Source of the DNA: a virus
IMG/VR virus record: IMGVR_UViG_3300025127_000009
Span: 1 to 64,000 of that record
Direction: 5' to 3' (one strand)
Length of the DNA stretch: 64,000 bases
The position numbers and the translations under genes are program-made. Shown here piece after piece: positions 3,914 through 55,580 of this stretch (positions within the stretch are counted from its first letter, which is position 1; the number at the start of each line of letters is the position of its first letter). The notes beneath the pieces were generated by a model, which worked only from the letters and a program-made list of their open reading frames with translations, was not told where the DNA came from and did not search any database.

Positions 3914-3942
3914 AAGTAACCCCTTATATATTTAAACTCACT

Positions 3943-29330: not shown

Positions 29331-29379
29331 AACTAATAAACCTCATGACTAATTATAACTCAACTTAAAATATTTCTCC

Positions 29380-33960: not shown

Positions 33961-35206
33961 CGCAAATATCCTCTTCATCGCCTAATGATACAGGCCTGTT
34001 TTCATTGTTTGCAGATGACGGTCCACCAGTTGCTCCAGAGTCAGTTTGTACTGGTATACCCGTATCCTCTCCTGCATCATCCAGTACGCCGGTACGGCTT
34101 TGACCTATTTCTCCCATTGAGCCCAACGTTCTTGGTATCGTATTGATTGGATCGCCATCGGCAAAAGATGCCAACAAACCTGCGCGACGTAATTCGTCTA
34201 AGCGCTTATAATAATCGGATATTGCATTAGAAAACATATCTCTAAGTTTGTCTCTGTTTATGCCTCTCAAATCAAAGCCATAAAACTCGGCTAAATCTTG
34301 ATCTGTCATCATGTCAAAGTAATGCTCTATATATTCATATCCTGCTTCAGCAATTGAGTCACTGTTTGCACTATCAAGAAATTCGTTATTTGTTGTATAC
34401 ATTGGTATTAGTTCTTCTTCTGTAACAGTTCCATTTGGGTTTCGAAAATTTGGCCCTCTTTCTACCTCATAAAACTCGATTTCAAAGTTTTCTAAATCAT
34501 AATCAACATTATCTTCGATAACACTAAAAATCATAACACCCTCATCAACTGTTAGTTTTATATCGTCTACAAAACTAAACTCTCTTTCTAAGCCGGTATA
34601 CCTATTTTCAAATTGATCGCTTGTTATATTATAGTCTGGATGGTTTGATCCTAGTCTCTCTACGTTTAAGGTGTGATCTACCTCATATTCTAATACAGGC
34701 CTTTTCATACCTATGTGAGGGGAAGAAGAACTAACATTAACACTTTTTATCTGCCCATGCAACAAACTATCTAATTCCCAAGAAGGAACACCTTGCTCTC
34801 CAATTGTTGAATTACCTAAAAAGTTTCTTACTAGTTTCCTGTCATCAGCACCCATTTTTTCATCATACATGTGATCGGTGCCATATAACATTTCAGAGGG
34901 AGTACCCACAACGTCATTAAACCTATCTATTTTGTATGCTTTAAGTTTCGCAACCCTTGTCTCAACGCCTTCTTGATCGTAAAGAACTTTTAAGCGTTGC
35001 GTGTCTCTTTGAATTCTTTTAGATGTTTCTTTTCCAGTTTCATTAAACTTATCTGTATCCGAATTAACATACGCATTGTTATACAGTATTTCATCATCAG
35101 AAAAAGTATAGAAAACTGGCTTGAATTTACCCTTTGATAGTAAGTATTTGCCAAACTGAGTTAACTCAATGTCGATAACGTCTTCTTTTTTGTTAAAAAA
35201 CGACAA
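33953..35206 (-). CDS. Virion structural protein (417 aa), TTG start
   Basis: A 417-residue acidic protein. The best start is TTG at 35206, with GAGGG eight bases upstream and the preceding stop just before it. Residues 5-50 hold the module shared with the 343-residue protein at 23454-24485 (IDIELTQFGKYLLSKGKF, then FSDDEILY). Further along are Tyr/Glu-rich helical stretches (EAGYEYIEHYFDMMTDQDLA) and an Asp/Gly-rich, probably disordered C terminus. It follows the 5534-residue giant and overlaps the next gene, so all are likely made together. It may be a chaperone or connector for the giant fibre; this is speculation. Confidence 0.75.
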   Translation of the reverse strand: MSFFNKKEDVIDIELTQFGKYLLSKGKFKPVFYTFSDDEILYNNAYVNSDTDKFNETGKETSKRIQRDTQRLKVLYDQEGVETRVAKLKAYKIDRFNDVVGTPSEMLYGTDHMYDEKMGADDRKLVRNFLGNSTIGEQGVPSWELDSLLHGQIKSVNVSSSSPHIGMKRPVLEYEVDHTLNVERLGSNHPDYNITSDQFENRYTGLEREFSFVDDIKLTVDEGVMIFSVIEDNVDYDLENFEIEFYEVERGPNFRNPNGTVTEEELIPMYTTNNEFLDSANSDSIAEAGYEYIEHYFDMMTDQDLAEFYGFDLRGINRDKLRDMFSNAISDYYKRLDELRRAGLLASFADGDPINTIPRTLGSMGEIGQSRTGVLDDAGEDTGIPVQTDSGATGGPSSANNENRPVSLGDEEDICDD

Positions 35207-35224: not shown

Positions 35225-38200
35225 TTACCTTGGCGCTCTACCTAAAAGATGCTTCAATTGCACCAGGCCAGATGCATCAGGAACAATTAACGACCTCTTA
35301 AACTTAAATTCAACTTCTGCATCCAAATTAATTAGTTCTACAAGAGAAAAATAATCATAGGGCCAGTTAAAACCATAATTAAACTTATCCTTTTCAATTG
35401 ACACAATTTTCTCTGGGTGACCATCTGGCAATCTATCTAATTGCTTTTTCCTAAAAAAGTCTGTCTCTGCTTTTTGTTTGACTTTAAAAACCATCCATTG
35501 TAATTTTTGAGATATGCCTCCCTTCCAGCCGTTAACTCTCCATCCTGTTCTGGGCACTTCTGTTAAAGAGACATTTGGATTTAATAAATCTTCAGCACCA
35601 AAAAGTTCGTGACTAACTGTAACTTCTTGTATTGTTTGCTCTCCACCGTTACGCCTGGCTTGGCCAAAAGCAAAATCTAGTCCAATATCTGGAGTTGTAT
35701 TTTGCCAAATTCTTGCTATATCCTGCTTTGACAACGTAACATCAAAAGGAAAGATATACATTGCAAAAGGCTCTATATATTTTCCATTCTTATCATTATA
35801 CTTTAAGAAATTTAACTGTGGAGGTATATTATACCTCAACATATTTTTTACCATTTCTGCGACGGAGTTTCTAACAGGTACTTTCGTCACTCCATCATTC
35901 AAAGTTCTTCTTGGATCATCTTGATCAGAGAAAAGTATATTATCTAATATGCCTGCGTTAGTTCTTTGATCAGCAATATCTTGCTCAGTTAGTTGTTTAT
36001 AATTAGGAAATCCCTGATCTCTGACTGCCTGATATACTTCTTCTTCTGGAAGTTTGAAAAACTGTTTTGTATTTTGTGACGTTACAAAAGGAATAGCAAC
36101 AACTGCTTCTGAAATTACTCTTTGTTCTGGCATTTTACCAATGATGCCATCGCCTTCTAATTGCACACCTAGTAAAGATTTCAGATCTCTTTTGTATCTA
36201 GACGGCCTCTTGTTCCCTATTATACTGACTCTTGGTCTCAGAGCGTTTTCTCCAAAATCACCAGACTGATGCCAAATACCCTTAATTTTAGGTAAATGCT
36301 GAACTGTCTTGTCTGTTCTCGGTTGGTTTGAAGTGACTTTTGTGAAATCAAATGTTGGGCATTCGAATTTAGTTTGTATAACTAAAGATCTCTTACCAGA
36401 TATTGGCTCACCATTGACATTGTAAGATTGAACAAACGCAGTTTCATTGTCTGCACTTAAGCCATAAAAACTTTCTGACAATTGCATAGCAAATCTTTTA
36501 TTGTAAGAGGGAACTGTCTTCCTGTTGTTTGACTTACCAGATCCTCTGTGACCGACAGAACCAGTGGCTCTAATCTGCCTACTATACACAACTTCTGTAT
36601 CTCTAAGAACAGACTCAACTGAATCATAAACTACATCGTCCTGTGGGGTAAACGTGTAATCTACAAATGCAACTTTATCATATTGAGGTGGGGTATATGG
36701 ACTAAAACCATAACCAACCTGTGTCAAGGATCTAGGAAGGTCATTTCCAAATATTTGAGTTCTAGAACTGCCCGCATCAACAGGAGGTCCAAAAGCAGCC
36801 GGGTTATTATACATGGGATTGTCACCAGGTCGGTTTCTTTCTTCAGCGACATCAGCCCTAACTAAAGATATCTGCATCTTGTATGGTATATTTCCACCTA
36901 TGCGGTCGTCAACTTCATGAACCACTGCTTCCTTTAACTCATCTGATGACCTTATTGTTACACCTGTTCGATTTTCTATGAAAAAATTTAGACTTTCAGC
37001 ATAAAAATTGTGCGCGGCTGCAGCGTAAAGAGACGATTTAGATTTTGCCAAATCCATATTAAATGTAGCCAGATTTGATGCTGAGTGTTTTGGTAAACCC
37101 ATAACAAATCTATCATCGCTTGAATATTCAGAAGTCACTCCGTCTGCTCTTAGAGGATTAAAATCTGATTTAAATACAAACTTATCTTTACTTGTCCCAT
37201 CTGTGCCAACAAAACGACGATTTCTTAAGAAAGTTGCATTCAAACTTGCACTTGGGTGTGGCTCCATATCATAAAACAAGGCAGTATTAACTTCACCGTC
37301 ATCTCCCATTGGGGGAGTAAATATTTCTGGTTCAATTATTGCCTCGAACGGTATTCTCACCGCTTTTCTAATACCAGTATTACCATGCAAACTTCTCCAT
37401 CCGTGTGAAAAAACGGTTGAATCATCACCAGAACCTGTAAAATGACTTATTCCGTAACTTGCTGAACCAATTCTTGGTATTGAATTGTCATCAGTAAAGT
37501 TGTGTTTACTTCCTTGTATGTAAGATGGTAATCTGACTGCACCAGTTATCTGCAAAGCAAAATCTTTAAATGTTCCTTCAAATGCTATTACATTTTTTTC
37601 TTGACCAAAATCGTCTGGTGTCCAATAATCTCCGCTCGCAACACCGCGTGTTTGAGACTTAAAAGGAAACCTCCAAGTCTTGTACCTAAATGCTGCACTC
37701 CTTGCGGCACCAAAACTGGCTGCACCAGCAAGAGTTGCTAGACCTGGATTTTCCGTAGAGTGATAAATATATGTATATTGATATGGATTTGACACATCTA
37801 CAATACCATTCCATCTTTGCCTTTGTTTTTCCATAGCAGGAATATCATTTACAATTGAACCTGACCAATCCGTAAACCCGTAAAATGTACCTGATAAAAA
37901 GTTTTTAGTAAAAGGAAAATCTTCTCTTAAGCCGTATGCGTTGACACTGCCTGTTTGCGCTGTAATAACTTTTCCACTGTGTAACGGCTGAGCGTGATTG
38001 AAGACAGGCAATCTGTTTGTTGTTGCGTGGCGACCACCTGCTGCATTTTGTGCTTCATTAGTTGTTTTTTTGTTATACCCAGTGTCATTACCAGGTCTAT
38101 ACCAGGCTACGATGTTATCATGTTTTGATTTATCAATTATAGTGTAAGGGTTAGTAGGCCCAATAAATTTTCCACTTGAATTAACTCTAGGTCTTGAGGG

Positions 38201-41200
38201 CGATGATACACCAAAAGACGATGTAAAATTATTGTTAAATTTGGGATTTTTAACAACACCAGATAAACCTTTTATTTCATCATTGGAAAGAGATTTGTTA
38301 ACAATAACAATTTCACTCATCATAAGTTCGCTTGGCTTTAGAAAATCTAAAAGAAAATCTTTTGTTCGAGGTGCAAACAATCCACCCCTAGCGTTTAATT
38401 CTCCAGCAACTGCATTAGACCGATCTACTTGGTTGGTTAGTCCTTGTCGGGCAACTGCTCGTTTTTGCTCACTATAATGGTAAGCGCCCAGACCACCTTC
38501 ACCGCCAACAAACTTGTTATCATTAAGAAACCTCAAGCACCCTATTTGGTTATTGGTGATTGTTACGTTTCCTGCTGGGCCTGGTAATAATTGATAGATA
38601 TCAACCTTGGCAACTGACACGTTTATCTCCGCATATAATTTAGGATGTGCGTTAACTGCTTTCCATATATTTTTAGCAATAGTGATGTCATCGGCAGATT
38701 TAGCGACATTCATGGCTGTTGGATTGAAATCGCCTCTAGTTGTAGTGCTTGATGCTGCTTTAAAAGTTATAGTTTCTCCATCTGTGGTATTAAACGAAAA
38801 GATAGTAGTTGCATCTGACAATGCATTGAAATTAGAGGCGTTTGTAATTTCTACAACTGCCATAGCCTGAGAATAGGAGCCTGACATCATGTGACTGTTT
38901 ATTCTATTAACGTTACCCAAGTGATTACCTATAAAACAATTTCTTGACCCATCCAATAATATTGGTGCCCCTGCAGTGCCGGGAGTGCCACCGTGAGATG
39001 CCGCATCTGTCCATGTTGTCCTGGTTGAAGTACTGTTTGTATGATCGTAAGCACTGTGAAAGTATTGTACGTGAGTTCTTCCTAAGTTGCCAAAGGGTGC
39101 ATTGTTGTGGTCTTTAGATGTGTTTGTTTCACCTGCTTGAGATGCACCTCTATCGGTATCATACTGGTGTCCGTTTCGAAAAACTTTAAAATGCTGTAGT
39201 TCTCTGCTTTTAAGATCTGCCTCTACATAAAAGTGATTCCAACCAGGGTGAGCCCAATCTGCCTCTACTAACGGATTACCAGGCATCGATCCAGTAGAAG
39301 TCATGCCAGGGCCAGATTGCCAACAAAAATAATTTTTACCATTTCCACCAAATAATTGAAAATATATTTGAGCGTGTGATTTATCTCCTGGAGAATACTT
39401 AAAGTCTGCAGCCTGCGGGTGGTCACCGCCGCGAGTTGTTGCGTTATCGACTGCTGCTGCATCAGGGGTGCTTCCATCGCTACCTACCAGGTCATTACTG
39501 GTTGATCCTCCCAATATGTTCTCTGTCTCGGAGACATTATCCATAAACGGACTGACTTGATATGTCAGGTGAAGTCCGGTTCTCCAAGAGTTTTTTGTTG
39601 CGTCGTTCCCACTTCCAAGCGAACAAATAACCCCTCTTTGACCGAGAAGTCTGCTGTCACCTACCCCGTTGCGGTGAACCCTGTTATTGCTGGATACATT
39701 CGGATCTGTTTCGTTTGTTGACGGCAAATACATCCAAAAAGATATTCCAAATTTACCATCATTTTCAAAGTCGCTACCAGTTAAGGCCTGTCCCCAATGA
39801 GATGCATCTCCTATTTCGATTCTATTTTTTGAAACGAAGCCAGCGTCAAATTGACGCGCAACGACTGCTGTCATATTACTACTACCAGCGTTTTCGTCTG
39901 CATGTTTGCTGGGGGTTCCAGAGTATACTATAGTCTTAACTCCTATTAAAACTATAACACTCTTGGGAGCATCTGCATCTGCGTAAAAAGTAAAACTTGT
40001 GCCATAGAAGGGGCCAAAATCTCGTCTTGCTCTTTCAGCAGTTGTGCATGCTATTTTTCCATTATGCCCACTAGCCGATTCTATAAGTGAAATTAATCCA
40101 TCTGCCCAAAATCTGCCTGAAGTGTCAGTTGGGTTTTCATTGGTAATATCAGCCGACTTGGCAAATTGCAGATTAGATTCTACTTCAGAGGGGCTAGTTT
40201 TAGCAGTGTAAGTTTTAGCGGTTCCATCCAAAGAAGTAATTACAAAAGTATCGCCATCTCCAAGAGCAGCACCGGCATATATGTGTGCAATTCCATTTTT
40301 TACTTCTGCAAAAGTCGTATTAGAATTTACTATAACTGAATCGCCAGGACCTGTAAAATCAAACTGAGTGTCGCCATTTGCATCTTTTGAAGAATAATTT
40401 TCTTCTCCAATTCCAAAATAGGATCCTTTGAAGTCTGCTAGTAAACTTGCACTTTGAAAAATAACGCCATACTGATTATATAGCCTATCTTCGTGTGGCT
40501 CGAACACAGGGTAATCCACTGCAATGCCTGATTTAACAGTGTTGAAGCCAATGCCAGGAGCATAATAAGGAGCCAAAACATTTCGCCAATGTCCACCGGA
40601 TACATACTGGTTGTACGACGAACTAAAATACGAGGCTAATTGAGTCATTCGATCCGCAGGGTAGAATCCTTTATAGGGTAAAAACTTTTTAAACGCCCTG
40701 CATGTTAAAGTGAGTCTTGTAGGAGACACAGAGCCGTCAGAAGTCGCAGGATATGTTTCATTAATTGACTCCTGTACAACATTAAACTGTTTCATAAAAT
40801 CAGTGTGACTGTATGTTTTGTAAAAATCACCTGAACCTGTGCTTGAACTGTTCGAATCTCCTAGTGCGCCTGTTAAAGTTAAGAAAGTATCTCGACAACT
40901 AAAGAATGGGTCTTCGCCTCCAACATCATTTATATAGTGATGCATATGTTCACTAATTCTAAACTCAGGAAGAACAGAATAACCCTTCGCTAAGAGTTTA
41001 GACTGGTATGAAAAGTCTTCATAACTATCAAAATTAAATGGATTTCTTGCTTCATCTTCCGGAACTTTGTAAAATTGAGAACCCCATAAGCAATTATCTA
41101 ATTTATCATTTTTAGCGTATATCATATGTGGCGCTTTCGAAGACGTCACTCTTACTTCAAAATCATAACTTCCAGAAGCATCTTCGAAACCTTGTATAAA

Positions 41201-44200
41201 ACCAGGAGTTTTAATATTTGTATATCTAATATCTGCATAATTATTAATATTTTTAAAATCTACAGCCGCTGGAACTATAAGAGACTCCCCGAAACTACTA
41301 ACATTGGGGCTAAAATATTCTCTTACCGTTCCAGCAGTTTGTACTTCTGCGCCGAATCCAGTTCTAAAGAGATTATTCTTTCTTGGAAGCCTAATTGTGC
41401 CGCCAGCGGTTGTATTACCACCTGCATTGTGATTTCCATCCAAAGATGCAGTGTTATGCATTTCAGTGATACCTACACCGACTCTTGAACTAAAATCTTC
41501 TCTATCAAAAAATATTTGCCTCTCCACTTCTTTCGTTTCATACACATTGACAAAAGTAATCAACCACTGTGATCGGTTAAAGGACGAGCCAAATTGATTG
41601 TGTAAGGTATTCGTTGAAGAAGGTATGTCTGCGTAAGTTAGAAACCTTATATTACCTTTTATAGATGCAGTTACAGTATGCTCAAAATGATGATATTTTA
41701 CTCTATTGTCTGTGCTAAAATTGTCAGTTGAACTAATTATAGGCACGTAAGAGGGGTCATAGGAAGAAGTAAGTGCAGAACCCGTTAATACACCTACAGT
41801 ATGCCAAGTTCCATCTTTACTAGATCCAACTTGAACATACAAAGGAAATCGGTTTTGCGGTCTGCCGTCAAAACCATCTGAACTATTTGCATGATATCTT
41901 ATAACCCCTGGAAATTGATATGAACTTGTAGTTCTAGCCCAAGAATAAGTGGCATTGGAGGAATTGAAATTTAAACGCGGTAAACCTTTTGCTGCAGCAG
42001 CACTAACTGTAGTTTGTCTATCTAAAGAAGCCAGTGGCTGACTTACCAAAAGAGACTTTCTCATACCATAATATGTCACGCCTCCATCATAGCCAGCCTT
42101 TAATTTTAATACCAAAGGTTCTGTAAGTTTAATTCTTTGCCTAAATTCAACAGTGTCTATTCCTTGATATGTGGATAAACCACTAGCGTTACCTGCAACG
42201 TTAACGGTGGTGCCGTCTTCTCTGGTTCGAACATGCTTCCCATTAGCATCGAGAGATAATTTTGAAACCCGAAAAGCCCCAAGAGAGCCACTATTGCTGC
42301 CACCGTGATGATGTTGACCTAAAGTAAAATCTTCTATCGTGCAAGTTGTGTTTGTCCCACTACTATCTCCTGTGTTGTTGCCACTACCATCAAGGTTTAT
42401 AACTGCAGTATCGCCACCCATGCAAGCCCATCCAATCGGGGGAAATCCCACTTCAACACCATAAGAAAAATCGCTTGAATTTTTGGGGTAAAAAGTAGGA
42501 ATAGTGTCTATGTTTGATTCAAATGAATCAACACTGTTCGAGCCATCTATAAATGTGTTGCTTACAGAACCAGCAGAATTTTTTGTTGCAACATACCAGG
42601 TTCCTGAATCACTACCATCTATAGATGTACCTGTGATAACTGTGTTTCCTGTTGCTCCGGGTCGAGTTTGCGTAATCACAACGTATGTTTGAGTAGCGGC
42701 ACCAATACCAGTTGGCCTCTCCTCTTTTGTTGCTATAAATTCATTGCCTGAAGGATCTATTTCCGTTGAATCTGTCAGATTAACCATTTGAATAAAGTTA
42801 TCTATTGTTTCTGAAACATCTGCGCCTATTCTATACCTTCTATCTGCTAAGCGCTTAACTGAGGATTGGCCGACGTTATCGCCTACTGTGTCACCAGGAG
42901 CGGTTACGGTGGTATTTGCTGTAAACCGGTAAACAATACCATCGGTAGATGTTAATAAAAGTGTTTTGCCATTAGTGGGCTGACTTTCCAAGCGTAAAAC
43001 GGCAAATGCTTTTTTTGCACCGGGAACATTTACAGTTTTACTCCTAAACGTATACGGACCTCTTGGTTGCATGTTGTTGCTGTATGATCCGCTTAATTTC
43101 AATATTTTATATTTGTTTCTTGCTGGGAGGCTGCTTGTTGATTGCATAGGAAAAGGTCTTGCAAATAACGCACTGGCGCTTGGAATCATATGATTGTTGT
43201 GAAAAATAGAGTACTCTGCGAACAGTTCTCCTGACCCTACTCCCTTTTCTGCACCTGTGCTATCAGTTCCTAGCAATCTATCTGTTGTTTTTCTTAACGC
43301 AACAGTTTTAAAATTTTGTTGAGCGTCTAAGGGCCAAACACTTAAACGTGATATCTTTTCTCCTTGAGAATTTAGTGCGTCTCTTTGTATTCTACTCTTA
43401 TGGTCTTTTCTCCAAAACTTTAATTTAAAGTTTGGTCTTCCTCTCGAAGACTTTAAAAATGCATTTTTTTCTTTTGGAAAAATACCCTCTCTATAGTAAA
43501 GTGCTGGCTCATATGCTTCATTGTTAAGAGGAAAAAGAGAAAACTGATCAATCCTTTTTAAAGTATTTTTCTTTTGCTTTTTTGTTAATTTAGTATCGGT
43601 AATAATAGCCAATTCTTCATTTGCAAAATTTGTGATATTATTAGAAAAAGTGTAAGACGCTAAGACAGGCAATTGGTTACCCGTGGTTGGCTTGCTAAGT
43701 GTTCTAATAGGATATTTGTTTATAGTAACAGGAGGCTCATTAAATCTATAATCTGTGCCCAGTTTATTAACTCGAACACCCCTAATCCCATAATGATCGT
43801 GATCTGATGTGTTTATCTTAATTGAAACCCATCTAAAGAAAACCTTATTTGCTGGTTCATCTATCACAGCGAATCGTTCATGAAAAGTATTTTTAGCAAG
43901 TTCAGAACCCTTTATATGATGTAGAGTCTTGTATTTTCCAGTTTCTCCGATCTTATATTGTAGGAACAGATCTTCCTGAGCCTCTGGGGCGTTCGTAAGA
44001 CTAAAATCTTGACTCGGGCCAGCGGAATCTGATCCTACAATGAATTCGTATTTTATAACTAGCGGTGCACTAAACGGCACAGAATACTCAACAGAGCGAA
44101 GATGCTTAAGGTTTGAATCAGGAGTACCTGTAAAACCAAAGCCTAAATTAAAAGTTTCGTTAAGAGCAGTATACGAAGCAAAGGTAGTATTTGCTGTTCC

Positions 44201-47200
44201 GATGAGTGCTAAAATCTTTTGACTACTGTCGTTAGCATTGGCCTTTATTCTAGGACCTGTTGTTACAGCAGCAGTAGATGCAAGATGTGTTGCCCAACCT
44301 TCTGGTACAGTGTCTACTGTTTCAGAAGAAAAACTATCTCTGTATTGTGTTTTTCCAACCTGATCAGAACTAGGTACACGTCTACCATATCGCGCTCGCT
44401 TGTGATCTATATTTTTAGGCCAACTATAATTACCTTGGCTAAAATAAGATGCATTGAATGCATTAACTCTACGGCCTGCATTGCTTTCATTTAAGAACGA
44501 TTCATCGTTAAATTCGAGTAAACCATTTTCATCTGGCGTGATCGTACCTTTTAATACTGGTGCATATATATTTCTCTTTCGCAACAATCTACCAAGTTGT
44601 GATTCGCCGCCTCTTATTTGTTTCCAACTAGGCCATCCATATGGACCTTGGCGATGCAAAATTGTTCCTGTTAGAAATTGACTGTTTATCGAACTAACTG
44701 TATTAGTATCCGTGTTGATATTGTCAATAACATGTGTATTCAAGCCCGCGAAGTCAAGCACATATTTTCTTATATTGCTACCCCGCTTTTCTTTTATTGC
44801 TGAGCCTGTTAAAAATTCATATGTTCTTTCATAACGCATAGAACCGGTGGCTGTTCCAAGAGACGCCTGTGTAAAAGAGTGTAGGTGCCCTGGAATTTGA
44901 TTTCTAACCAAGCCGTCTCTCAAAGATGCTGATATCCAGGAGTATTGATGATCATTTTGCGGTATCGGATGAGTAACAAATTTATTATCTTTTACTTTTT
45001 TAATTGTTACTGTACTGTTACTACTACCATGCGATCCATCGAAATACGCCACTCTTCTTGGTCGAGTGTTAATATTTATTTTATGATCTGTTTCCAGATT
45101 TGTAGAACCAACACTTGAACTATAAGAAAGGTGATCTAAGTAGTTTCTTGGTCCCCGCACTGATAAATTACGATAATTCATTGAGTTGTAAACAGAAAAT
45201 TGATTTGTTTCTCTATCTAAACTTTGACCACCTCTTGAATCTCCAGCAACCTCTGTGCCGCCAGGTGCAGAAAACCTTGATGTAATTGTATTTTTGCGTG
45301 TGGTTCTTGGTAACTTGCCAAATTCTTTTGCGCCAAAAAGAGACTTTGTGATGGCCTCAATGGGATGTGCAAATACGGCTCCACCATTCAACGGGTCGGT
45401 GCGGCCAGTTTCGCTAATTAGAATATAATCCGATCCAACTGCTACCGCAGCACCAAGTTCGCGTTGTCCTGCACTCGAAGGAGTAAACCTAAATTTTTGT
45501 TCCCAGTTGGTGCCATTTCTCTGAAACAAGTAGGCTGCGCCAGCATAACTATTATACCTCGCTGCACTCACAACGACATTATCACCAGAAATGGCCACTA
45601 CTTGGCCAAACTGTGAGTTCCCTGCCCTATCCGACGCAACAATTTTAGCCTGTTGGGACCATGTTCCGCTAGATTTTTTGAATATATATGCAGAACCTGC
45701 CAAGCCCAGAGTGTTGCCACCAGCAGCATCTTCGTCTTCAAAGTACGCTCCAACAACAATGTAGTCGCCTGATATCGATACACTAGTGCCAAACTCATCA
45801 ACGCTATTTCTATCAGAAGCAACAATTTTTTGAGTTTGAGACCAAGTTTCGCTTGATCTATCAAACACATATGCAGAGCCAGCCTTGCTCTTAGTGTTAG
45901 AGCCAGCAGCATCTTCGTCCTCTCGCGGTGCGCCGACAACCAAAGTATCGCCATCAAGTGAAACAGAGCGCCCAAATTCATCGTTGGCTGCTAAATCAGA
46001 AGAAACGACTTTTTGAGTTTGAGACCAAGTTTCGCCTGATCTTTTAAATATATAAACAGCGCCTGCCGACGTTGAATTGTCATGTGCTCCAACGGCTATA
46101 TAATCACCCGATATTGCAACGCCTTCTTCACCAAGGCTGAAGTCATCACCCGCTGCTCTATCAGAAGGAACAATTTTTTGTGTCTGAGCCCAAGTATTTC
46201 CAGTTCTTTTAAACACGTATGCGGAACCAGCAAGGCTTAGTGTATTTGAGCCTGCTGCGTCTTCATCTTCCTGTTCCGCACCAACAACAATGTAAGGATC
46301 ATCAATTGCAACAGAACTACCAAACTTATCTGTTGTGGCTCTATCTGAGGCCACAAGTTTTTGCATTTGCGTCCAAGTATTCCCTGTTTTTTTAAAAACA
46401 TACACAGAACCAGCACCACTAAGAGTATTAGAGCCCCCAACGTCATGGTCTTCTTGCGGAGCGCCAACAACAATGTAGTCGCCTGATATTGCTACAGAGT
46501 CGCCAAAATCATCGCCCAAAGCCGTATCGGAGGCTAAAAGAGTTGTGGGAGAACTAAGAGAGTTTATAATTGACTGTGATGTTGATGATGTTAATTGCTC
46601 AAGATTATCGACAACAAAACGCCCACTTTGTCTTGGTGATGTAAACTGCACAATATCAGATACGTGGCTGTAATTTCCTAGTGAATTTACTTTAATATTT
46701 TTTATATTTACAGGACTCTTCGCTAAAGGCTCTCTGAGAAAACGCGATGTAGCATAACTCTCATTAATTATTGGCACCTTCCCTGTTGTTAAGCCTGAAG
46801 CGTTAGGAGGAAGAACATATAATTTTTGGTCTTGCGCTAAAAGCCTAAAACCTTCAAACCGTGTAGTTTCAGAATCTTGTCCCTTATTTAAGCCAACATG
46901 TCGAAAAGCACTGCCACCAACAAACTTTTCTGTAAATGGAGACTGTAGCGTTACCTCTTTATCATCTCCATAAGCATCTGTGTGAAGGTTTGATATTTCT
47001 ACACCTTTCTTAACTTTGCTAAAAATTTCGGCGTGATAATCTTTTGGGTCATCCAAAGAACTACTATAAAGACTAAAAGGAGAAACAAGATCAGAATCGT
47101 GGTCTTTGCTTGTGTGAGATATATCTGCTGGTGCAGCCCACTTCTTTTTTTCGTTTGGAATTTGTACATCTGTGCAATCCACCCTTTGTATTTCAGAGCC

Positions 47201-50200
47201 TGTAATGGCAATGTAAGTTTTATGGCTTGGCTTTGTTACACCAGCATAAAATCTTCTTTTTGAATTACCGAAGAAACTACTACCACCCTTAACTTCTCTT
47301 TGGTTTTCTACAGTAAATTTATACGGTCTAGTTAACCTTCTTGTTACATATGTTGAGCCAGAAACATTAGTATTTGCAATTCTTCTAATGATTTCTCGGT
47401 CCCTATCTACAACAACGTTGCCGGAAGATGTATCAGTTACACGCTGTGCGCGTTCCTTCTTCCAAAGGCAATTATCACCACTCTTTGCCTTTACCACTGT
47501 AACAACATCTGGAATGGCAGGTTTTACAAAGGTGGCATTCATATTTGAATTAGAACCATAAGTAATTGTAAAAGTTCCACCCGAGTCATGAGTTAGTGTC
47601 ACAACGGAAGCCGTTCCATTGCCGCTGGAACCACCATCTGTTGTAACTGCTGCTGTTATTGCAACAGCGCCACTACTTGAGCCGTTAATTGCTGCAGCCA
47701 ACCTGGTGGCCATTGTGCCGTCACCAGGACCTCCACTGGCCGAAACAATATCGTCGTTACCATCGCCTATGTTCATAGTAACATAAACAATTCTGGTGCT
47801 TGAGCCATCATTTAACGTTATTGTGGAGTTACAACCAACACGACCACTGCATGTAAAACCAAGACTGCTACCATCAACAGTGCCATCAGGTATTGTTATT
47901 GTTGTACTGCCAGTATAACCTGCACCAGACTCAGTGATTATTCTATCCGCATCAAATGGTGCGTGCCCATGTTGCCAGTCATAAAGTAATTCGTTTATAC
48001 CTCTAACGTTACCTATGATTGTTGGCTCTTTAAGATTAATGCCTTGATATTTTGATCTGTATTTATTTCTCTCTAGGATGTGGCTTTCAATTACATTCTG
48101 AATGTCGTTAGATGATTCAACAGATGCTGGTATCAACTGATCAATCATAATCGAAAGGGAAGAATCAAGCCATTTGTAATACTCCATATACCTTTCAATG
48201 TCTGGTTCATTTTGTATTCTATCAAAAAACACCTGTCTTAGTTTTGACATTGCTTTATAGTCTTGACGGTATTTCTCGACAGGTGCTCCTATAAGATTAC
48301 TAAAGTCGTTTACACCAGCAAAAAAGTTCATCATCTCATCAGAAATTGCAGAGTACATGCTCTTTTCGAAAGAATAATAATAATCTATTGGTTTTGTTTC
48401 TCTGGTGAAAGTTTGATCATCATTAAGATTAATCTTAACCATATCAGAACTTCGAACACTTTCAAACGCCTGCAATTTAGCAGCGCTATCCATCTCCATA
48501 TCTACACTAGATGTGGTAGAGACAGCAAAATTTATTCCTTTTGCAGGATGCAATACTTTAGTTATTGCCCCAACCTTTCCAGCCCCAAGTCTATGTACAT
48601 CGTTTAAAGAACCAGAAGAGACATCATTAATCCACATTTGTCCCGTTTTGTTAGAGCCTGTTAGATTTGAAAAATCCCAGTTTATAGCAAGTAAATCAAT
48701 TTGAGGTATTTGAACATTTCCAATATTACTCAAAGGAAAAGACATCTGTGAAGGGCTCAATAAACCATACGAAGAAGGATCTATAGCGTGCCTGCGAATC
48801 TCTTCTTTGTCTAAACTTGTTAGCCAGTGCCTAAAGTTAGCAACTTTTACATCTGTTTCTTCTTGTAACTGATCATCGAAATCTTTTCTATGCGCACCTA
48901 GATAAAATCTTTTTGATGCAACACCAAAATCTTGAGTCGTTGAATTTACGCCACCTTGAAAATGACATTGCACTGTAGCATTTGCAATACTGTCGGCGGC
49001 TTCTGTTTCGCCAATGTCACCAACTATACTTTGCGTAAAAGTAATTTTTCTATTACCTGCATCGAAAGTAGCAATTATTTCTCCATTGTGACCAGAGGCT
49101 GCATTAACAGCATTCATCAGATTTGTATATGTGTTGGTTACACTACCGGCGTCAATAGTTACCGAAATGCTTCCTGCAGTCACTGATCCGTTACTATCAA
49201 ACTCGTATCTTTTTGAAGTTCCCTGTGCCGAGATTAGATTTATGAAATTTCCATCTGCTGGAAGTTGATCACCTGAAGAGTTATATTGAATAAACGCACT
49301 TGCTGCCGTACCTGCCGTGTTAAAATCGCTTTGAACATGGTACTCTCTTTTTATAGCGTCACCTATCGACTCGCACGCTATTAATTCTATTTTATTTACA
49401 ACTGCACTACCAGAAACATTAGAAGAAAAAGGTATATCAGAGCCAACTCTTACTGCTACGTTCCACCTGTTAGAATCGTACAAATCTACAATATATGGTG
49501 TTTCAATGGTTGAAAACAAATTGTTTCTACATTTTAAAACAAATTTAGCAGTCCTAGAATCGTTTGTATCCTTTGCTACATAAAGTTGAAAGTTAGCAAC
49601 ATCGTCTGATTCTGACGTCCAAGCCAAAAGTGACCCATCTGCTAAGTATTTTTCTCCAGTTTTTGAGTCTGTTTGACCAGGTGTACCTGTTTTTTTGCGT
49701 ACAGTGTGGCATCCCATGATACTAGAACTTATTGGCGTTGAAAAATAAAATGGATGTCCAATTGCATATCTTGGAGGAAAGAAAACTTGAACTTGAGTTG
49801 TAGATCCAAAGTCTGAAAAATTATGTGCTTCGCTGACTAGTGTCCCTGTCACATATCCTCTGGCGTCTGCTAATCTATAGTCGCCTGTTAGGCCATCTAT
49901 TGTTTGTATAATCGAAGAATCTGTGTGCGCTTCTGTGCTAAAATTTACATATTTAGTCCTTACAGATACAGGACTATAACCATTCTCAATTGGGTACTCC
50001 GAGTCTGTTGAATATAGATTTATTTTTATAAGTTCGTTATCTATACCAAAGCATCTAAATAAGTTTCTAAATGATTTTTCAGTTCCCTTAGACTTATAAA
50101 TGGCTTCTAGATTGTTGTAAATGTTGTTGTATATAAAGTTTTTAACATCGGAAAGTTTCTGTTTAAACTCGTCATCTTCATTTCTGTTCAAGAATAAATT

Positions 50201-51829
50201 TATTGTTTCGGTATCCAAAAATAGTTCAGGAGTTACCAGGCCCAAGGATTCAAGTTTGATATCGTTAAAAGGGTGTGGTTTATTATCTAAACTGTGATAC
50301 TTTCTCTCCGTGATAGATCTAAAATCTTTTATCTGCTGGTATAAACTGTCAAAATAACTCGCTACAATTTGAGTTACTTTTCTTAGTTGATTTCCATTTT
50401 CCCCGTCTTCATCAATAATCCAAGCGGGCATAGTATAATAAAGGCTAGAGTTATTATCTAAATCATATGCATACCCTTGTTCTTTCTTCGCGTCAGTAAA
50501 AGCAAGAACTTTAGGATGTTGCCTGTAGATGATTGGATCTTTAAACTCTTTAAATGAAGAAGAAGACTCGGTAATTGCTGAGCCATTATTCCTACCAACA
50601 CCAGCATAACCAACCCACTGCCCATTTGTAAGCCTACCAGAGTAATCTAAAATAACATTATCTATCTCATTTACTCCTGTGGTACCCTCATTGAACTTAT
50701 AATAAACTCCCAACGGTGTGTTCGCAACATCTTCATTAGAGCCTGCGCCAACCTGTGTGTTAAAGAATCTTCCGACTTCCTTGGAAGACCTTTCTTTCTT
50801 CCAAAACCTAAACTCGTCTAACGAGCCAGACAGTTTTCCGTAACCCAAACCTGCTGTACTCTGATGAAAGTCTCGATTTATTGTAGACAGCGTATTCTTA
50901 CCAGTGGCCAATGCCCCTATTACTCCAACTATAGGCGTATTAAGTTCTCCGACTGCAGAACCTGTTAGGGTAGAAAATTTGGGTGTGCCGTCAATATAAC
51001 CTCTAACTAAAACTGATCCTGAAATATTTTTAAAAGTAAACGCATAATGATGCCAGCCACCATCTTTAACTGAATTATATAAAGTTGAATCTCCAAAATT
51101 TAAGTTTTTGAATCCCGTAGTGCCCGACTGGTATGTCAAGTAAAATGGAGATTTTGAACCATTGCTCGAATCTAGTTCTATAGTCATGCGTCCGTGGCCT
51201 GACTTACTTTCACCTGTGCCTATTGTGTGCGCATCAAAGATTACCTCTCTTTGAGTTTTAGCAGTAACATACTCTGTCTTCTTCAGCCAAAACTCGACTG
51301 TGTTGCCTCTATTCCCATTGATTTCTAAATTAGAAGACCTAAAACTTGCAGTGCTATAAAAGTTGCCAATATTTGGGCCACCTTTTATATAGATGTATTC
51401 TTTTGTACCCGGATTTCCGTAAGACCCACTTGTGGTGCCTGAACTCCAGCCATTGCCGCCGGCTCGATTAGCACTTATTGTTATAAAACCTGTTGTTCTA
51501 GGGTATTCTTTTTCAAATAAATGAAGGTCAAAACCACTAGAGTTGTTGAAATATTCTTGCTTTTCTCTTAAAGAACCATCGTAAGGATATTCTTCCTGAA
51601 TTCTTTTTATGCCTGCTTCATAATATTCTGCCAAAGAACCGAATACTGCAAAGTTGGAACCTGTAGTGTAATCAGTGTGCGCTTTAAAACTATTTTTATC
51701 TTTGATATAGGCTTCGACGTAACCAATAGACTCTACATCATCAAGATATTGAGTAAAATTAGCCAGACTAACAATGTCTTTTTTAACGTCTTTACTGACT
51801 CTATCGCCAAATAACCTTTTTAAACTCAT
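35225..51829 (-). CDS. Giant modular tail protein / adhesin with LamG-like domains and FG-GAP propeller
   Basis: A 5534-residue protein in one unbroken frame of 16.6 kb, a quarter of the window. Residues about 150-400 form a LamG/concanavalin-like domain (GWHHYAFTF near 258; GSLDEFRFWKKERS near 336). Residues about 1762-2158 are seven FG-GAP-type repeats, enough for a closed beta-propeller. A second LamG-like region spans about 4010-4520 (FGISFWMYLPS, then IVNKSLSNDEIKGL). Five copies of a roughly 100-residue Gly/Thr/Asn module are scattered between. Jelly-roll-like stretches lie near 2583-2695. No protease or lysozyme motif is evident. The build is that of a sugar- or protein-binding host-recognition structure. 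The ATG follows the preceding stop by two bases. Confidence 0.85.
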   Translation of the reverse strand: MSLKRLFGDRVSKDVKKDIVSLANFTQYLDDVESIGYVEAYIKDKNSFKAHTDYTTGSNFAVFGSLAEYYEAGIKRIQEEYPYDGSLREKQEYFNNSSGFDLHLFEKEYPRTTGFITISANRAGGNGWSSGTTSGSYGNPGTKEYIYIKGGPNIGNFYSTASFRSSNLEINGNRGNTVEFWLKKTEYVTAKTQREVIFDAHTIGTGESKSGHGRMTIELDSSNGSKSPFYLTYQSGTTGFKNLNFGDSTLYNSVKDGGWHHYAFTFKNISGSVLVRGYIDGTPKFSTLTGSAVGELNTPIVGVIGALATGKNTLSTINRDFHQSTAGLGYGKLSGSLDEFRFWKKERSSKEVGRFFNTQVGAGSNEDVANTPLGVYYKFNEGTTGVNEIDNVILDYSGRLTNGQWVGYAGVGRNNGSAITESSSSFKEFKDPIIYRQHPKVLAFTDAKKEQGYAYDLDNNSSLYYTMPAWIIDEDGENGNQLRKVTQIVASYFDSLYQQIKDFRSITERKYHSLDNKPHPFNDIKLESLGLVTPELFLDTETINLFLNRNEDDEFKQKLSDVKNFIYNNIYNNLEAIYKSKGTEKSFRNLFRCFGIDNELIKINLYSTDSEYPIENGYSPVSVRTKYVNFSTEAHTDSSIIQTIDGLTGDYRLADARGYVTGTLVSEAHNFSDFGSTTQVQVFFPPRYAIGHPFYFSTPISSSIMGCHTVRKKTGTPGQTDSKTGEKYLADGSLLAWTSESDDVANFQLYVAKDTNDSRTAKFVLKCRNNLFSTIETPYIVDLYDSNRWNVAVRVGSDIPFSSNVSGSAVVNKIELIACESIGDAIKREYHVQSDFNTAGTAASAFIQYNSSGDQLPADGNFINLISAQGTSKRYEFDSNGSVTAGSISVTIDAGSVTNTYTNLMNAVNAASGHNGEIIATFDAGNRKITFTQSIVGDIGETEAADSIANATVQCHFQGGVNSTTQDFGVASKRFYLGAHRKDFDDQLQEETDVKVANFRHWLTSLDKEEIRRHAIDPSSYGLLSPSQMSFPLSNIGNVQIPQIDLLAINWDFSNLTGSNKTGQMWINDVSSGSLNDVHRLGAGKVGAITKVLHPAKGINFAVSTTSSVDMEMDSAAKLQAFESVRSSDMVKINLNDDQTFTRETKPIDYYYSFEKSMYSAISDEMMNFFAGVNDFSNLIGAPVEKYRQDYKAMSKLRQVFFDRIQNEPDIERYMEYYKWLDSSLSIMIDQLIPASVESSNDIQNVIESHILERNKYRSKYQGINLKEPTIIGNVRGINELLYDWQHGHAPFDADRIITESGAGYTGSTTITIPDGTVDGSSLGFTCSGRVGCNSTITLNDGSSTRIVYVTMNIGDGNDDIVSASGGPGDGTMATRLAAAINGSSSGAVAITAAVTTDGGSSGNGTASVVTLTHDSGGTFTITYGSNSNMNATFVKPAIPDVVTVVKAKSGDNCLWKKERAQRVTDTSSGNVVVDRDREIIRRIANTNVSGSTYVTRRLTRPYKFTVENQREVKGGSSFFGNSKRRFYAGVTKPSHKTYIAITGSEIQRVDCTDVQIPNEKKKWAAPADISHTSKDHDSDLVSPFSLYSSSLDDPKDYHAEIFSKVKKGVEISNLHTDAYGDDKEVTLQSPFTEKFVGGSAFRHVGLNKGQDSETTRFEGFRLLAQDQKLYVLPPNASGLTTGKVPIINESYATSRFLREPLAKSPVNIKNIKVNSLGNYSHVSDIVQFTSPRQSGRFVVDNLEQLTSSTSQSIINSLSSPTTLLASDTALGDDFGDSVAISGDYIVVGAPQEDHDVGGSNTLSGAGSVYVFKKTGNTWTQMQKLVASDRATTDKFGSSVAIDDPYIVVGAEQEDEDAAGSNTLSLAGSAYVFKRTGNTWAQTQKIVPSDRAAGDDFSLGEEGVAISGDYIAVGAHDNSTSAGAVYIFKRSGETWSQTQKVVSSDLAANDEFGRSVSLDGDTLVVGAPREDEDAAGSNTKSKAGSAYVFDRSSETWSQTQKIVASDRNSVDEFGTSVSISGDYIVVGAYFEDEDAAGGNTLGLAGSAYIFKKSSGTWSQQAKIVASDRAGNSQFGQVVAISGDNVVVSAARYNSYAGAAYLFQRNGTNWEQKFRFTPSSAGQRELGAAVAVGSDYILISETGRTDPLNGGAVFAHPIEAITKSLFGAKEFGKLPRTTRKNTITSRFSAPGGTEVAGDSRGGQSLDRETNQFSVYNSMNYRNLSVRGPRNYLDHLSYSSSVGSTNLETDHKININTRPRRVAYFDGSHGSSNSTVTIKKVKDNKFVTHPIPQNDHQYSWISASLRDGLVRNQIPGHLHSFTQASLGTATGSMRYERTYEFLTGSAIKEKRGSNIRKYVLDFAGLNTHVIDNINTDTNTVSSINSQFLTGTILHRQGPYGWPSWKQIRGGESQLGRLLRKRNIYAPVLKGTITPDENGLLEFNDESFLNESNAGRRVNAFNASYFSQGNYSWPKNIDHKRARYGRRVPSSDQVGKTQYRDSFSSETVDTVPEGWATHLASTAAVTTGPRIKANANDSSQKILALIGTANTTFASYTALNETFNLGFGFTGTPDSNLKHLRSVEYSVPFSAPLVIKYEFIVGSDSAGPSQDFSLTNAPEAQEDLFLQYKIGETGKYKTLHHIKGSELAKNTFHERFAVIDEPANKVFFRWVSIKINTSDHDHYGIRGVRVNKLGTDYRFNEPPVTINKYPIRTLSKPTTGNQLPVLASYTFSNNITNFANEELAIITDTKLTKKQKKNTLKRIDQFSLFPLNNEAYEPALYYREGIFPKEKNAFLKSSRGRPNFKLKFWRKDHKSRIQRDALNSQGEKISRLSVWPLDAQQNFKTVALRKTTDRLLGTDSTGAEKGVGSGELFAEYSIFHNNHMIPSASALFARPFPMQSTSSLPARNKYKILKLSGSYSNNMQPRGPYTFRSKTVNVPGAKKAFAVLRLESQPTNGKTLLLTSTDGIVYRFTANTTVTAPGDTVGDNVGQSSVKRLADRRYRIGADVSETIDNFIQMVNLTDSTEIDPSGNEFIATKEERPTGIGAATQTYVVITQTRPGATGNTVITGTSIDGSDSGTWYVATKNSAGSVSNTFIDGSNSVDSFESNIDTIPTFYPKNSSDFSYGVEVGFPPIGWACMGGDTAVINLDGSGNNTGDSSGTNTTCTIEDFTLGQHHHGGSNSGSLGAFRVSKLSLDANGKHVRTREDGTTVNVAGNASGLSTYQGIDTVEFRQRIKLTEPLVLKLKAGYDGGVTYYGMRKSLLVSQPLASLDRQTTVSAAAAKGLPRLNFNSSNATYSWARTTSSYQFPGVIRYHANSSDGFDGRPQNRFPLYVQVGSSKDGTWHTVGVLTGSALTSSYDPSYVPIISSTDNFSTDNRVKYHHFEHTVTASIKGNIRFLTYADIPSSTNTLHNQFGSSFNRSQWLITFVNVYETKEVERQIFFDREDFSSRVGVGITEMHNTASLDGNHNAGGNTTAGGTIRLPRKNNLFRTGFGAEVQTAGTVREYFSPNVSSFGESLIVPAAVDFKNINNYADIRYTNIKTPGFIQGFEDASGSYDFEVRVTSSKAPHMIYAKNDKLDNCLWGSQFYKVPEDEARNPFNFDSYEDFSYQSKLLAKGYSVLPEFRISEHMHHYINDVGGEDPFFSCRDTFLTLTGALGDSNSSSTGSGDFYKTYSHTDFMKQFNVVQESINETYPATSDGSVSPTRLTLTCRAFKKFLPYKGFYPADRMTQLASYFSSSYNQYVSGGHWRNVLAPYYAPGIGFNTVKSGIAVDYPVFEPHEDRLYNQYGVIFQSASLLADFKGSYFGIGEENYSSKDANGDTQFDFTGPGDSVIVNSNTTFAEVKNGIAHIYAGAALGDGDTFVITSLDGTAKTYTAKTSPSEVESNLQFAKSADITNENPTDTSGRFWADGLISLIESASGHNGKIACTTAERARRDFGPFYGTSFTFYADADAPKSVIVLIGVKTIVYSGTPSKHADENAGSSNMTAVVARQFDAGFVSKNRIEIGDASHWGQALTGSDFENDGKFGISFWMYLPSTNETDPNVSSNNRVHRNGVGDSRLLGQRGVICSLGSGNDATKNSWRTGLHLTYQVSPFMDNVSETENILGGSTSNDLVGSDGSTPDAAAVDNATTRGGDHPQAADFKYSPGDKSHAQIYFQLFGGNGKNYFCWQSGPGMTSTGSMPGNPLVEADWAHPGWNHFYVEADLKSRELQHFKVFRNGHQYDTDRGASQAGETNTSKDHNNAPFGNLGRTHVQYFHSAYDHTNSTSTRTTWTDAASHGGTPGTAGAPILLDGSRNCFIGNHLGNVNRINSHMMSGSYSQAMAVVEITNASNFNALSDATTIFSFNTTDGETITFKAASSTTTRGDFNPTAMNVAKSADDITIAKNIWKAVNAHPKLYAEINVSVAKVDIYQLLPGPAGNVTITNNQIGCLRFLNDNKFVGGEGGLGAYHYSEQKRAVARQGLTNQVDRSNAVAGELNARGGLFAPRTKDFLLDFLKPSELMMSEIVIVNKSLSNDEIKGLSGVVKNPKFNNNFTSSFGVSSPSRPRVNSSGKFIGPTNPYTIIDKSKHDNIVAWYRPGNDTGYNKKTTNEAQNAAGGRHATTNRLPVFNHAQPLHSGKVITAQTGSVNAYGLREDFPFTKNFLSGTFYGFTDWSGSIVNDIPAMEKQRQRWNGIVDVSNPYQYTYIYHSTENPGLATLAGAASFGAARSAAFRYKTWRFPFKSQTRGVASGDYWTPDDFGQEKNVIAFEGTFKDFALQITGAVRLPSYIQGSKHNFTDDNSIPRIGSASYGISHFTGSGDDSTVFSHGWRSLHGNTGIRKAVRIPFEAIIEPEIFTPPMGDDGEVNTALFYDMEPHPSASLNATFLRNRRFVGTDGTSKDKFVFKSDFNPLRADGVTSEYSSDDRFVMGLPKHSASNLATFNMDLAKSKSSLYAAAAHNFYAESLNFFIENRTGVTIRSSDELKEAVVHEVDDRIGGNIPYKMQISLVRADVAEERNRPGDNPMYNNPAAFGPPVDAGSSRTQIFGNDLPRSLTQVGYGFSPYTPPQYDKVAFVDYTFTPQDDVVYDSVESVLRDTEVVYSRQIRATGSVGHRGSGKSNNRKTVPSYNKRFAMQLSESFYGLSADNETAFVQSYNVNGEPISGKRSLVIQTKFECPTFDFTKVTSNQPRTDKTVQHLPKIKGIWHQSGDFGENALRPRVSIIGNKRPSRYKRDLKSLLGVQLEGDGIIGKMPEQRVISEAVVAIPFVTSQNTKQFFKLPEEEVYQAVRDQGFPNYKQLTEQDIADQRTNAGILDNILFSDQDDPRRTLNDGVTKVPVRNSVAEMVKNMLRYNIPPQLNFLKYNDKNGKYIEPFAMYIFPFDVTLSKQDIARIWQNTTPDIGLDFAFGQARRNGGEQTIQEVTVSHELFGAEDLLNPNVSLTEVPRTGWRVNGWKGGISQKLQWMVFKVKQKAETDFFRKKQLDRLPDGHPEKIVSIEKDKFNYGFNWPYDYFSLVELINLDAEVEFKFKRSLIVPDASGLVQLKHLLGRAPR
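45355..46545 (-). repeat. Seven tandem FG-GAP-type repeats inside the giant protein gene
   Basis: Seven diverged repeats of about 50-60 codons, each built as SDR...FG.SVAISGDYIVVGA, an acidic loop, then AGSAYVFKRTGNTW. The last (LGAAVAVGSDYILISE) is the most diverged. Acidic loops of repeats 1, 2, 4 and 5 (such as EDEDAAGSN) resemble calcium-binding loops; repeats 3 and 6 have short versions. Repeats are also visible in DNA as recurring blocks, which could allow recombination. Confidence 0.85.
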
Positions 51830-51831
51830 CT

Positions 51832-53757
51832 TTATTCAACTCTAAATTTAAACTCATCTTTGTTAACTACATTTTGTCCATAACAATCTGTAGATATTTC
51901 TAGTGCGTACATGTATCCGGGCTCAAAAAGAGACATGTCTAACTTGAAATAACTTCCACTTGAATCGTAAGAAGCCTTCGTATGAGGTATACTGCCTGAA
52001 CCATAAGATATAACCTCTGTATCATCTATAACCCTGTACGCTCTATAATATAAATTATATAGCACTTCGTTTGGACTTTTTCTTGTTGCAACAGAATAAA
52101 TGTTTGGTTGAAAATCTTTTTTTCTAACGTTGACCCTGAGAGAGGGTTTATCACTTGTTTTGTATGCTGACTTTAAATTGCCGATAGATAAAATATAATC
52201 TTCGTCTGCATTATTGTATGGAAGTGGTTTATGGGTTTTTACTTTTATTGCAGAACCAGTAAACAATTGTACTCCAGCAACAGTACTCCAAACATCATAA
52301 ACTTTAGTTGCAGATCCTGTATAGGCAAATGAAGCACTATACACACCTGTGTCCGTAGATAGATATGCAGATGCCCAATTCCTGTTGTTAACACGCACTC
52401 CTCCACCAATTGGAAACAATATCGGCTTTGCTGTGTTAGATATTTCATCATACAACCTTACTTTCATCAAAGTTTCCCCTGTTGATTGATCTGAGCCATC
52501 TGGTGAAGTTTTTAGAGCAGGTATATTACTTAAACCTTTTCTTGTATAGTTGTATATGTACAGTGTGTTTAAGTTTTCAGCACCTGTCGCTAGTGAAGAA
52601 CTTTTGAAAAAATTAGATCTGTCGTCTCCAATCGATGAATTCCATCTAGCCTCTATATGAGGCCTCTTAAAAAAGAACTCAGTGCCTCTGGCAAAAAACT
52701 TTTTTGTATAGTATGATCTGTTACGCGAACCATCTTCATACGTTCCTGACATTTTTATTAATACACCGTAGTTTTCTCTATCCGGATCAACTGTTGACTC
52801 TGCCTCCAGCCATTCTTCAACTAGGGATGTGATATTAATTTCTATATCTTCGGTCCCTTTGTGCAAAAACTGTGAATAGTGTGGGAGATTTTTCCCGGCA
52901 GTATATCCAACTTCATGGAAATCTCCCCCAGTGTTGGTCCAGCGAGTTTTTCCACCTTGTTGCACTACAGTTAAAGTAAAGACGCTATTATCTAATACGC
53001 TCGATGGGACAGTTGAACCTGCTGTGCCGCCGTTTCCGGTGTTAGTGAGTCTGACTGTTGCTCCGGTTGAGTCTGAAGTGTCGTCTTCTGATATTGAAGC
53101 AGAAATATTTATACTCTGAGCATCTAGTGCTGTTTTTACTTTTTTGGCAAAATGTTTAACAGTGGTCAAACCACCAGCAGATATATCTACTTCTATTTCA
53201 GTTCCGTCAAGACTAGGTGCTGATTGTGCCCCGTCATGATCAAACCAAAAATTGTATATGGCGTTGGAGTTGTCTCTTAAAACAAAATATTTTCCATTAT
53301 AATCTGCTTTTGTGGTGCTAATAAATTTAATGTCTGTAATATCGGGCACTTTTGTATCGTTGGCAAAAACCCAATTTGAAACCATTTCATCAGAATACTC
53401 TTCCATATCCAAGCCGCTGCCCTCAGACCAAGAACGCGATATAGGCAAAATCGCTAAAGAATAATTTTTTGGCAAAGATTGTCCGTGCTCCGCATTAAAG
53501 ATTCTAAGAACAAACTTGACACTACCTGACGCTGGTATTGTTGCTGCATCTCTGTCTGACTTTATTTTAGAGACAGGGAAATTTATTAACGCTCTAGACT
53601 TTTCCACGGAGCCTGACGAGGCTTGTCCGTAAATTGAAAAAACTTCAAGAATGTCAGATTCACCAGAATTGGAACCTGTGCCCCTAACAGATAAATTAGA
53701 TTTAAAAGCATTTGTAATCGTATTGTCAGCATTAGCAAAATATCTTTTAATAGTCAT
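51832..53757 (-). CDS. Tail appendage protein with DNRLRE-like N terminus
   Basis: A 641-residue protein between the gp6-like gene and the giant adhesin-like gene. The N-terminal 300 residues resemble DNRLRE-type beta domains: a regular beta pattern, KSRALINFPVSKI near residue 55, and ILPISRSWSEGSGLDM near residue 105. Into this part is inserted a copy of the Gly/Thr/Asn module also found in the giant (about residues 150-265; TVKHFAKKVKTALDA). The C-terminal 200 residues are beta-rich and may bind the giant fibre. The ATG overlaps the gp6-like stop by one base (TAATG). A baseplate-to-fibre connector role fits its place, but is inference. Confidence 0.75.
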   Translation of the reverse strand: MTIKRYFANADNTITNAFKSNLSVRGTGSNSGESDILEVFSIYGQASSGSVEKSRALINFPVSKIKSDRDAATIPASGSVKFVLRIFNAEHGQSLPKNYSLAILPISRSWSEGSGLDMEEYSDEMVSNWVFANDTKVPDITDIKFISTTKADYNGKYFVLRDNSNAIYNFWFDHDGAQSAPSLDGTEIEVDISAGGLTTVKHFAKKVKTALDAQSINISASISEDDTSDSTGATVRLTNTGNGGTAGSTVPSSVLDNSVFTLTVVQQGGKTRWTNTGGDFHEVGYTAGKNLPHYSQFLHKGTEDIEINITSLVEEWLEAESTVDPDRENYGVLIKMSGTYEDGSRNRSYYTKKFFARGTEFFFKRPHIEARWNSSIGDDRSNFFKSSSLATGAENLNTLYIYNYTRKGLSNIPALKTSPDGSDQSTGETLMKVRLYDEISNTAKPILFPIGGGVRVNNRNWASAYLSTDTGVYSASFAYTGSATKVYDVWSTVAGVQLFTGSAIKVKTHKPLPYNNADEDYILSIGNLKSAYKTSDKPSLRVNVRKKDFQPNIYSVATRKSPNEVLYNLYYRAYRVIDDTEVISYGSGSIPHTKASYDSSGSYFKLDMSLFEPGYMYALEISTDCYGQNVVNKDEFKFRVE

Positions 53758-55569: not shown

Positions 55570-55580
55570 AATAAATAGTT
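55570..55580 (-). promoter_or_regulatory. Candidate regulatory motif AACTATTTATT (copy 3)
   Basis: The third copy of the 11-mer lies in the gp25/gp6 gap, overlapping the gp25-like stop codon and only 17 bases before the gp6-like ATG. That is too close for an ordinary promoter with a leader, so if functional it may mark something else, such as RNA processing or regulator binding. Confidence 0.25.

Follow-up and report, generated by a model that had tools for sequence, protein, structure and literature searches.

In phage T4, two copies of gp6 and one copy of gp7 make the core of each of the six baseplate wedges, and the place of gp7 is occupied by gpI in phage P2 and by Tri2 in pyocins. Cyanophages encode giant proteins directly after gp6, with lengths, taken from annotated coordinates, of 3274 aa in Syn1 (Syn1_094), 3849 aa in S-BM3, 4024 aa in S-B05 (QCW22831.1), 4225 aa in ACG-2014f (AIX34308.1), 4067 aa in SynMITS9220M01_083 and 3045 aa in S-CAM3. 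Three of these six are annotated as “baseplate wedge initiator”. In cyanophage S-CREM2, ORF122 (1937 aa) is described as a baseplate wedge protein next to gp6 for which 91 unique peptides were found in virions, together with a long tail fibre of 4971 aa (PMC10665884). The corresponding wedge protein of cyanophage A-1(L) also helps to anchor the long tail fibre (PMC10966104).

We analysed a window of 64,000 nucleotides, part of a linear virus contig of 192,597 bases, in which a protein of 5534 residues is encoded close to the genes for gp25 and gp6. Given its gene position, the conservation of its KGT segment and its profile links, we think it probable that this giant is the gp7-type protein in the baseplate wedge of a T4-like marine phage, expanded by inserted modules. 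Since giant proteins at the gp7 position are known in cyanophages, it is an extreme variant and not a new kind of protein. What is new is the LamG-bearing lineage, its organisation as a scaffold with inserts, the natural splitting of the gene, the occurrence of one filler module in both the giant and the upstream gene, and the largest size within the sample.

The giant gene and its neighbours

The giant gene occupies positions 35,225 to 51,829 on the minus strand, starts with ATG and has no internal stop; the predicted mass of the chain is 608 kDa. A codon-usage model trained on the other genes of the window preferred this frame in every one of 54 sliding windows, which excludes a hidden frame shift within the ORF. 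The single uninterrupted frame described in the initial annotation thus carries a coding signal along its full length. The gene does cover a quarter of the window, as had been said, and 8.6% of the full record. That the protein is far larger than usual is true in comparison with T4, but less so next to the cyanophage proteins of 3045 to 4225 aa at the same place and the 4971-aa fibre of S-CREM2. Scans for Rfam families and tRNAs gave no matches.

Upstream, on the same strand, lie a gp25-like baseplate wedge gene (55,579–55,968, phrog_261, E = 7e-17), a gp6-like baseplate wedge gene (53,757–55,553, phrog_219, E = 5e-20) and a gene of 641 codons (51,832–53,757) that precedes the giant. Hence, the giant belongs to the wedge cassette, with one gene between it and gp6. 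This order is widespread among the relatives: a gp6-like ORF was found upstream of the giant in at least 63 of the 76 checked, and a homologue of the 641-aa gene was adjacent in at least 60 (both counts are lower bounds because identical ORFs were collapsed). The S-CREM2 ORF122 also follows gp25 and gp6, but is smaller; compared by position and not by sequence, it supports, by analogy, the view that virions contain the protein encoded at the giant's position.

The opposite end of the window encodes a terminase and portal-like, protease-like and gp23-like capsid proteins, and the terminase is closest (~43%) to those of Flavobacterium phage immuto and Microcystis phage Mel-JY01. We searched all ORFs of the immuto, Mel-JY01 and LR756508 regions with a profile of the giant's core. 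It matched only the large ORF that follows gp25 and gp6 (E = 4e-15 to 4e-20). As this was the only ORF matched in each region, we regard the proteins immuto_161 (1265 aa), WWT39511.1 of Mel-JY01 (1336 aa) and the LR756508 ORF (1404 aa) as orthologues. They have the same core and the same cassette, are about a quarter of the giant's size and are annotated as hypothetical only. In none of these three proteins did we find the long scaffold that follows residue 1300 in the giant.

Two other features of the region were observed. The proteins encoded at 33,953–35,206 and 23,454–24,485 have similar N-termini when compared by eye (D-I-[ILV]..LT..G...[LM]..G.F....F...DDEI.Y), which suggests that they are paralogous tail proteins. 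Further very large, unassigned proteins of the baseplate region are encoded in 24,558–33,978 and 55,981–63,999 (1590, 1532 and at least 2672 aa); PHROG gave no function for the 1590- and 1532-aa proteins.

The conserved core and its links to wedge proteins

Within the family, conservation is highest in a helical segment resembling those of gp7 and gpI (residues 415–610; 50,000–50,587, minus strand). Conservation peaks at residues 551–600 (NIYNNLEAIYKSKGTEKSFRNLFRCFGID), around a KGT motif. The segment with this motif (residues 555–605, SDVKNFIYNNIYNNLEAIYKSKGTEKSFRNLFRCFGIDNELIKINLYS; 50,015–50,167, minus strand) was aligned by hhalign to three wedge families. Over a short stretch of ~30–60 residues, it is homologous to gp7, gpI and the cyanophage wedge initiators. 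The strongest link passes through the cyanophages: the window core matched their wedge initiators on the KGT motif (E = 1.9e-5, probability 78%), and the cyanophage N-termini matched the T4 gp7 family on the same motif (E = 1.4e-10, probability 97%), with none of 60 column shuffles scoring as well in either case. Direct alignments of the window core with the T4 gp7 family (E = 0.0015, probability 17%) and the P2 gpI family (E = 0.003, probability 10%, score 25.6) were weak but in the same register. All three family matches outscored 60–100 shuffled controls.

T4 gp7 (1032 aa) and P2 gpI (Tail_P2_I) resemble the giant in their position after homologues of gp25 and gp6 and in sharing, in the same register, a helix-helix segment with KG[T/I]. 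The similarity is confined to this one short segment: both lack LamG and propeller domains and are smaller than the giant, five times for T4 and thirty times for P2. The cyanophage giants resemble it in being huge, in being encoded right after gp25 and gp6 and in having the KGT motif, which we found in seven of the nine N-termini read (it was missing from the ACG-2014f and MIT fragments). They differ in that the motif lies near residue 197 without a preceding LamG domain, no gene separates them from gp6, and full-length similarity to the window protein is absent. In the two scanned for accessory domains (Syn1 and ACG-2014f), Pfam detected YHYH (L177 10–9831 and L195 1–12675, E = 7e-25 and 6e-21) and neither LamG nor FG-GAP.

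Judged by their curated cut-offs, neither Tail_P2_I (PF09684) nor Baseplate_wedge (PF23786) matched the window genome; the latter matched Melnitz-3 above and Syn1 below its cut-off. In LR756508, the sole Tail_P2_I match falls on the KGT motif (E = 0.024). The structural model of the wedge segment had no significant Foldseek match (best E = 2), and the two phage baseplate entries among its 17 matches (8kea_c, E = 2.4; 9f4a_A0, E = 3.1) were non-significant. With an 886-aa model of the core, the matches were dominated by lectin folds and the wedge part was not revealed, and searching PDB sequences with the core by hmmsearch yielded chance matches only. A conserved “LIPAS” segment of the family is shared with immuto and LR756508. 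For the C-terminal half of the wedge domain, HMMER gave no alignment with Syn1, T4 or Melnitz-3.

The initial annotation had classed the protein as adhesin-like, by comparison with the T4 tail fibre protein gp34. An adhesin or tail fibre acting on its own, whose gene lies in the baseplate block by chance, would fit the LamG domain and FG-GAP propeller, which occur in surface-binding proteins, and the size of cyanophage long tail fibres, which reach 4971 aa (PMC10665884). Yet conservation peaks in the KGT segment and not in the binding-type domains, the synteny with gp25 and gp6 is strict, the profiles link the protein to wedge initiators, and the propeller is missing in the relatives examined whereas the scaffold persists. 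We consider this alternative unlikely. As a class, the adhesin label is unsupported: position, KGT conservation and profiles favour the wedge protein.

Scaffold, inserts and split genes

Using residues 401–733 as a query we found 30 loci, and the derived profile gave at least 348 matches, all in IMG/VR. Five members of the family occur in metagenome-assembled genomes. One relative (L114, CP070664.1) lies within a 2.8-Mb chromosome labelled candidate division WOR-3, and is either a prophage or a mis-assembly. When the giant was compared directly with 50,697 phage records by tblastn, no match was found, and direct searching gave no relative among cultured-phage records. The marine family has no entry in Pfam or PHROG. 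Among 65 complete ORFs, one is a fragment of 829 aa (L020) and the rest span 1693–3965 aa, with most close to 3200. The fragment's ORF stops after a tail without similarity, and its truncation is probably due to a frame shift or a sequencing error. No member larger than the window protein was seen, the next largest complete relative sampled having 3965 aa, although some relatives are incomplete.

Alignment with the relatives revealed a colinear scaffold of ~2900 aa, broken by inserts that vary from phage to phage. The first conserved block covers residues 1–860. The second (residues 968–1291; 47,957–48,928) continues the wedge region, ends with YYKWLDSSLSIMIDQLIPAS...ESHILERNKY, and is also present in Mel-JY01 and LR756508. 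It is followed by blocks at residues 1453–1750 (46,580–47,473), 2166–2430 (44,540–45,334), 2690–2880 (43,190–43,762) and 3590–3790 (40,460–41,062). The C-terminal block (residues 4930–5520; 35,270–37,042), found in 138 IMG/VR relatives, completes the series; all are on the minus strand. The stretches between blocks are missing in most relatives.

This alignment bears on whether the giant could be an assembly or sequencing artefact, with neighbouring genes fused or foreign DNA inserted. The propeller and several inserts do lack counterparts in the relatives examined, as such an artefact would predict. However, the frame has no stop and a coding signal from end to end, the conserved blocks are colinear with many independent contigs, and the inserts lie at sites where the relatives also carry variable inserts, all of which makes an artefact very improbable. 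A frame shift or a gene fusion was ruled out by codon usage and colinearity.

In five relatives (L026, L043, L055, L056 and L109) two genes that adjoin or overlap encode the chain together, and the C-terminal block is then in a separate ORF. The splits fall at three positions, corresponding to residues ~2260–2279, 2303–2365 and 2820 onward, the last one near the end of the block at residues 2690–2880 in L055, L056 and L109. Hence, the two halves need not be covalently joined, and these relatives allow one to ask which parts of the chain have to be linked covalently. The splits, in their three places, would also suit post-translational cleavage of a wedge protein into at least two virion proteins, one forming the wedge part and another the distal part. 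Against such processing, most of the 65 complete ORFs encode one undivided chain of 2700–3965 aa, and we give it a low probability.

A gp7-type wedge protein remains our preferred reading, and it proposes a function for a large, abundant and unnamed family of ocean-phage proteins with at least 348 database matches. On this reading, a small component of the baseplate is able to become at least five times larger, through insertions at fixed positions, without losing its core. By analogy with gp7 and gpI, the segment at residues ~415–1291 would pack with two copies of gp6 in each of the six wedges, giving six copies per virion, or ~3.6 MDa together. The remaining four fifths of the chain, a conserved scaffold, would reach out to form the outer baseplate. 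Each phage lineage has inserted different modules into this scaffold, here the extra fillers, the FG-GAP propeller and probably a beta-sandwich.

Lectin-like, propeller and filler modules

The view of the giant as a modular chain with lectin-like and propeller domains is supported by Pfam and by structural modelling. Only LamG and FG-GAP were identified by PHROG and Pfam scans of its fragments; with PHROG, nine fragments matched no tail-fibre family, and the lone match (E = 0.41) was to a family of unknown function. Of the two LamG-like regions claimed initially, the first is a genuine Laminin_G_3 domain (residues 164–352; 50,774–51,340, minus strand), above the Pfam cut-off (E = 5e-10, and 2e-12 in a second scan) and present in nine of the 14 relatives scanned. 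The second (residues ~605–1060; 48,650–50,017, minus strand) has no Pfam match. Its AlphaFold2 model has a pentraxin as top PDB match in Foldseek (3flp_A, E = 0.0077, probability 0.99), which makes a second LamG-like domain likely but unproven. A third LamG domain at residues ~4006–4335 was tested and not supported.

The seven-repeat propeller is clearly an FG-GAP domain (residues ~1764–2155; 45,365–46,540, minus strand), with an FG-GAP_2 match at E = 1e-76 and 253 bits for a cut-off of 23; this membership applies to one domain of the giant only. Reading through these residues we counted seven repeats, of which a strict pattern retrieves five, the other two being degenerate. The propeller lies in a variable insert (residues 1754–2166). 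It is absent from the relatives examined, and a search of IMG/VR with it found no relative. The closest phage propellers are in structural proteins of Vibrio phage nt-1 and cyanophage S-TIM5. Evidence for the jelly-roll-like parts is weaker: the sole Pfam trace is a sub-cut-off match to Reelin_subrepeat-B (E = 0.018) at residues 2591–2687 (43,769–44,059, minus strand). This insert, common only to the giant and one relative (L004), is a possible jelly-roll.

It is possible that the giant also binds receptors, judging by the kinds of domain it contains, and LamG and the propeller might then make the first contact with the host surface. A bolder version, which we put forward tentatively and doubt more than we favour, is that the wedge itself does the receptor binding: six 608-kDa chains would be scaffold and host-recognition surface at once, and changes of host range would come from swapping propeller, LamG and filler modules at fixed insert sites rather than from swapping fibres. 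If the modules do bind hosts, these sites are the places to seek host-range changes in unculturable phages.

The five copies of the filler module were recovered by an iterated profile, all on the minus strand: residues 859–961 (48,947–49,255, E = 4e-23), 1334–1429 (47,543–47,830, E = 3e-10), 2953–3072 (42,614–42,973, E = 9e-13), 3858–3930 (40,040–40,258, E = 1e-11) and 4343–4444 (38,498–38,803, E = 5e-17). Single copies fail to match one another with phmmer, so that the family is visible on iteration only, and it has no entry in Pfam or PHROG. The first copy splits the second LamG-like region, and the others sit in other inserts. A sixth copy is found at 52,975–53,298 (E = 5e-20), within the 641-aa gene that precedes the giant. 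In many relatives (e.g., L004, L005, L033 and L072) the upstream gene likewise carries the filler, and among the relatives too the module occurs in both of these genes.
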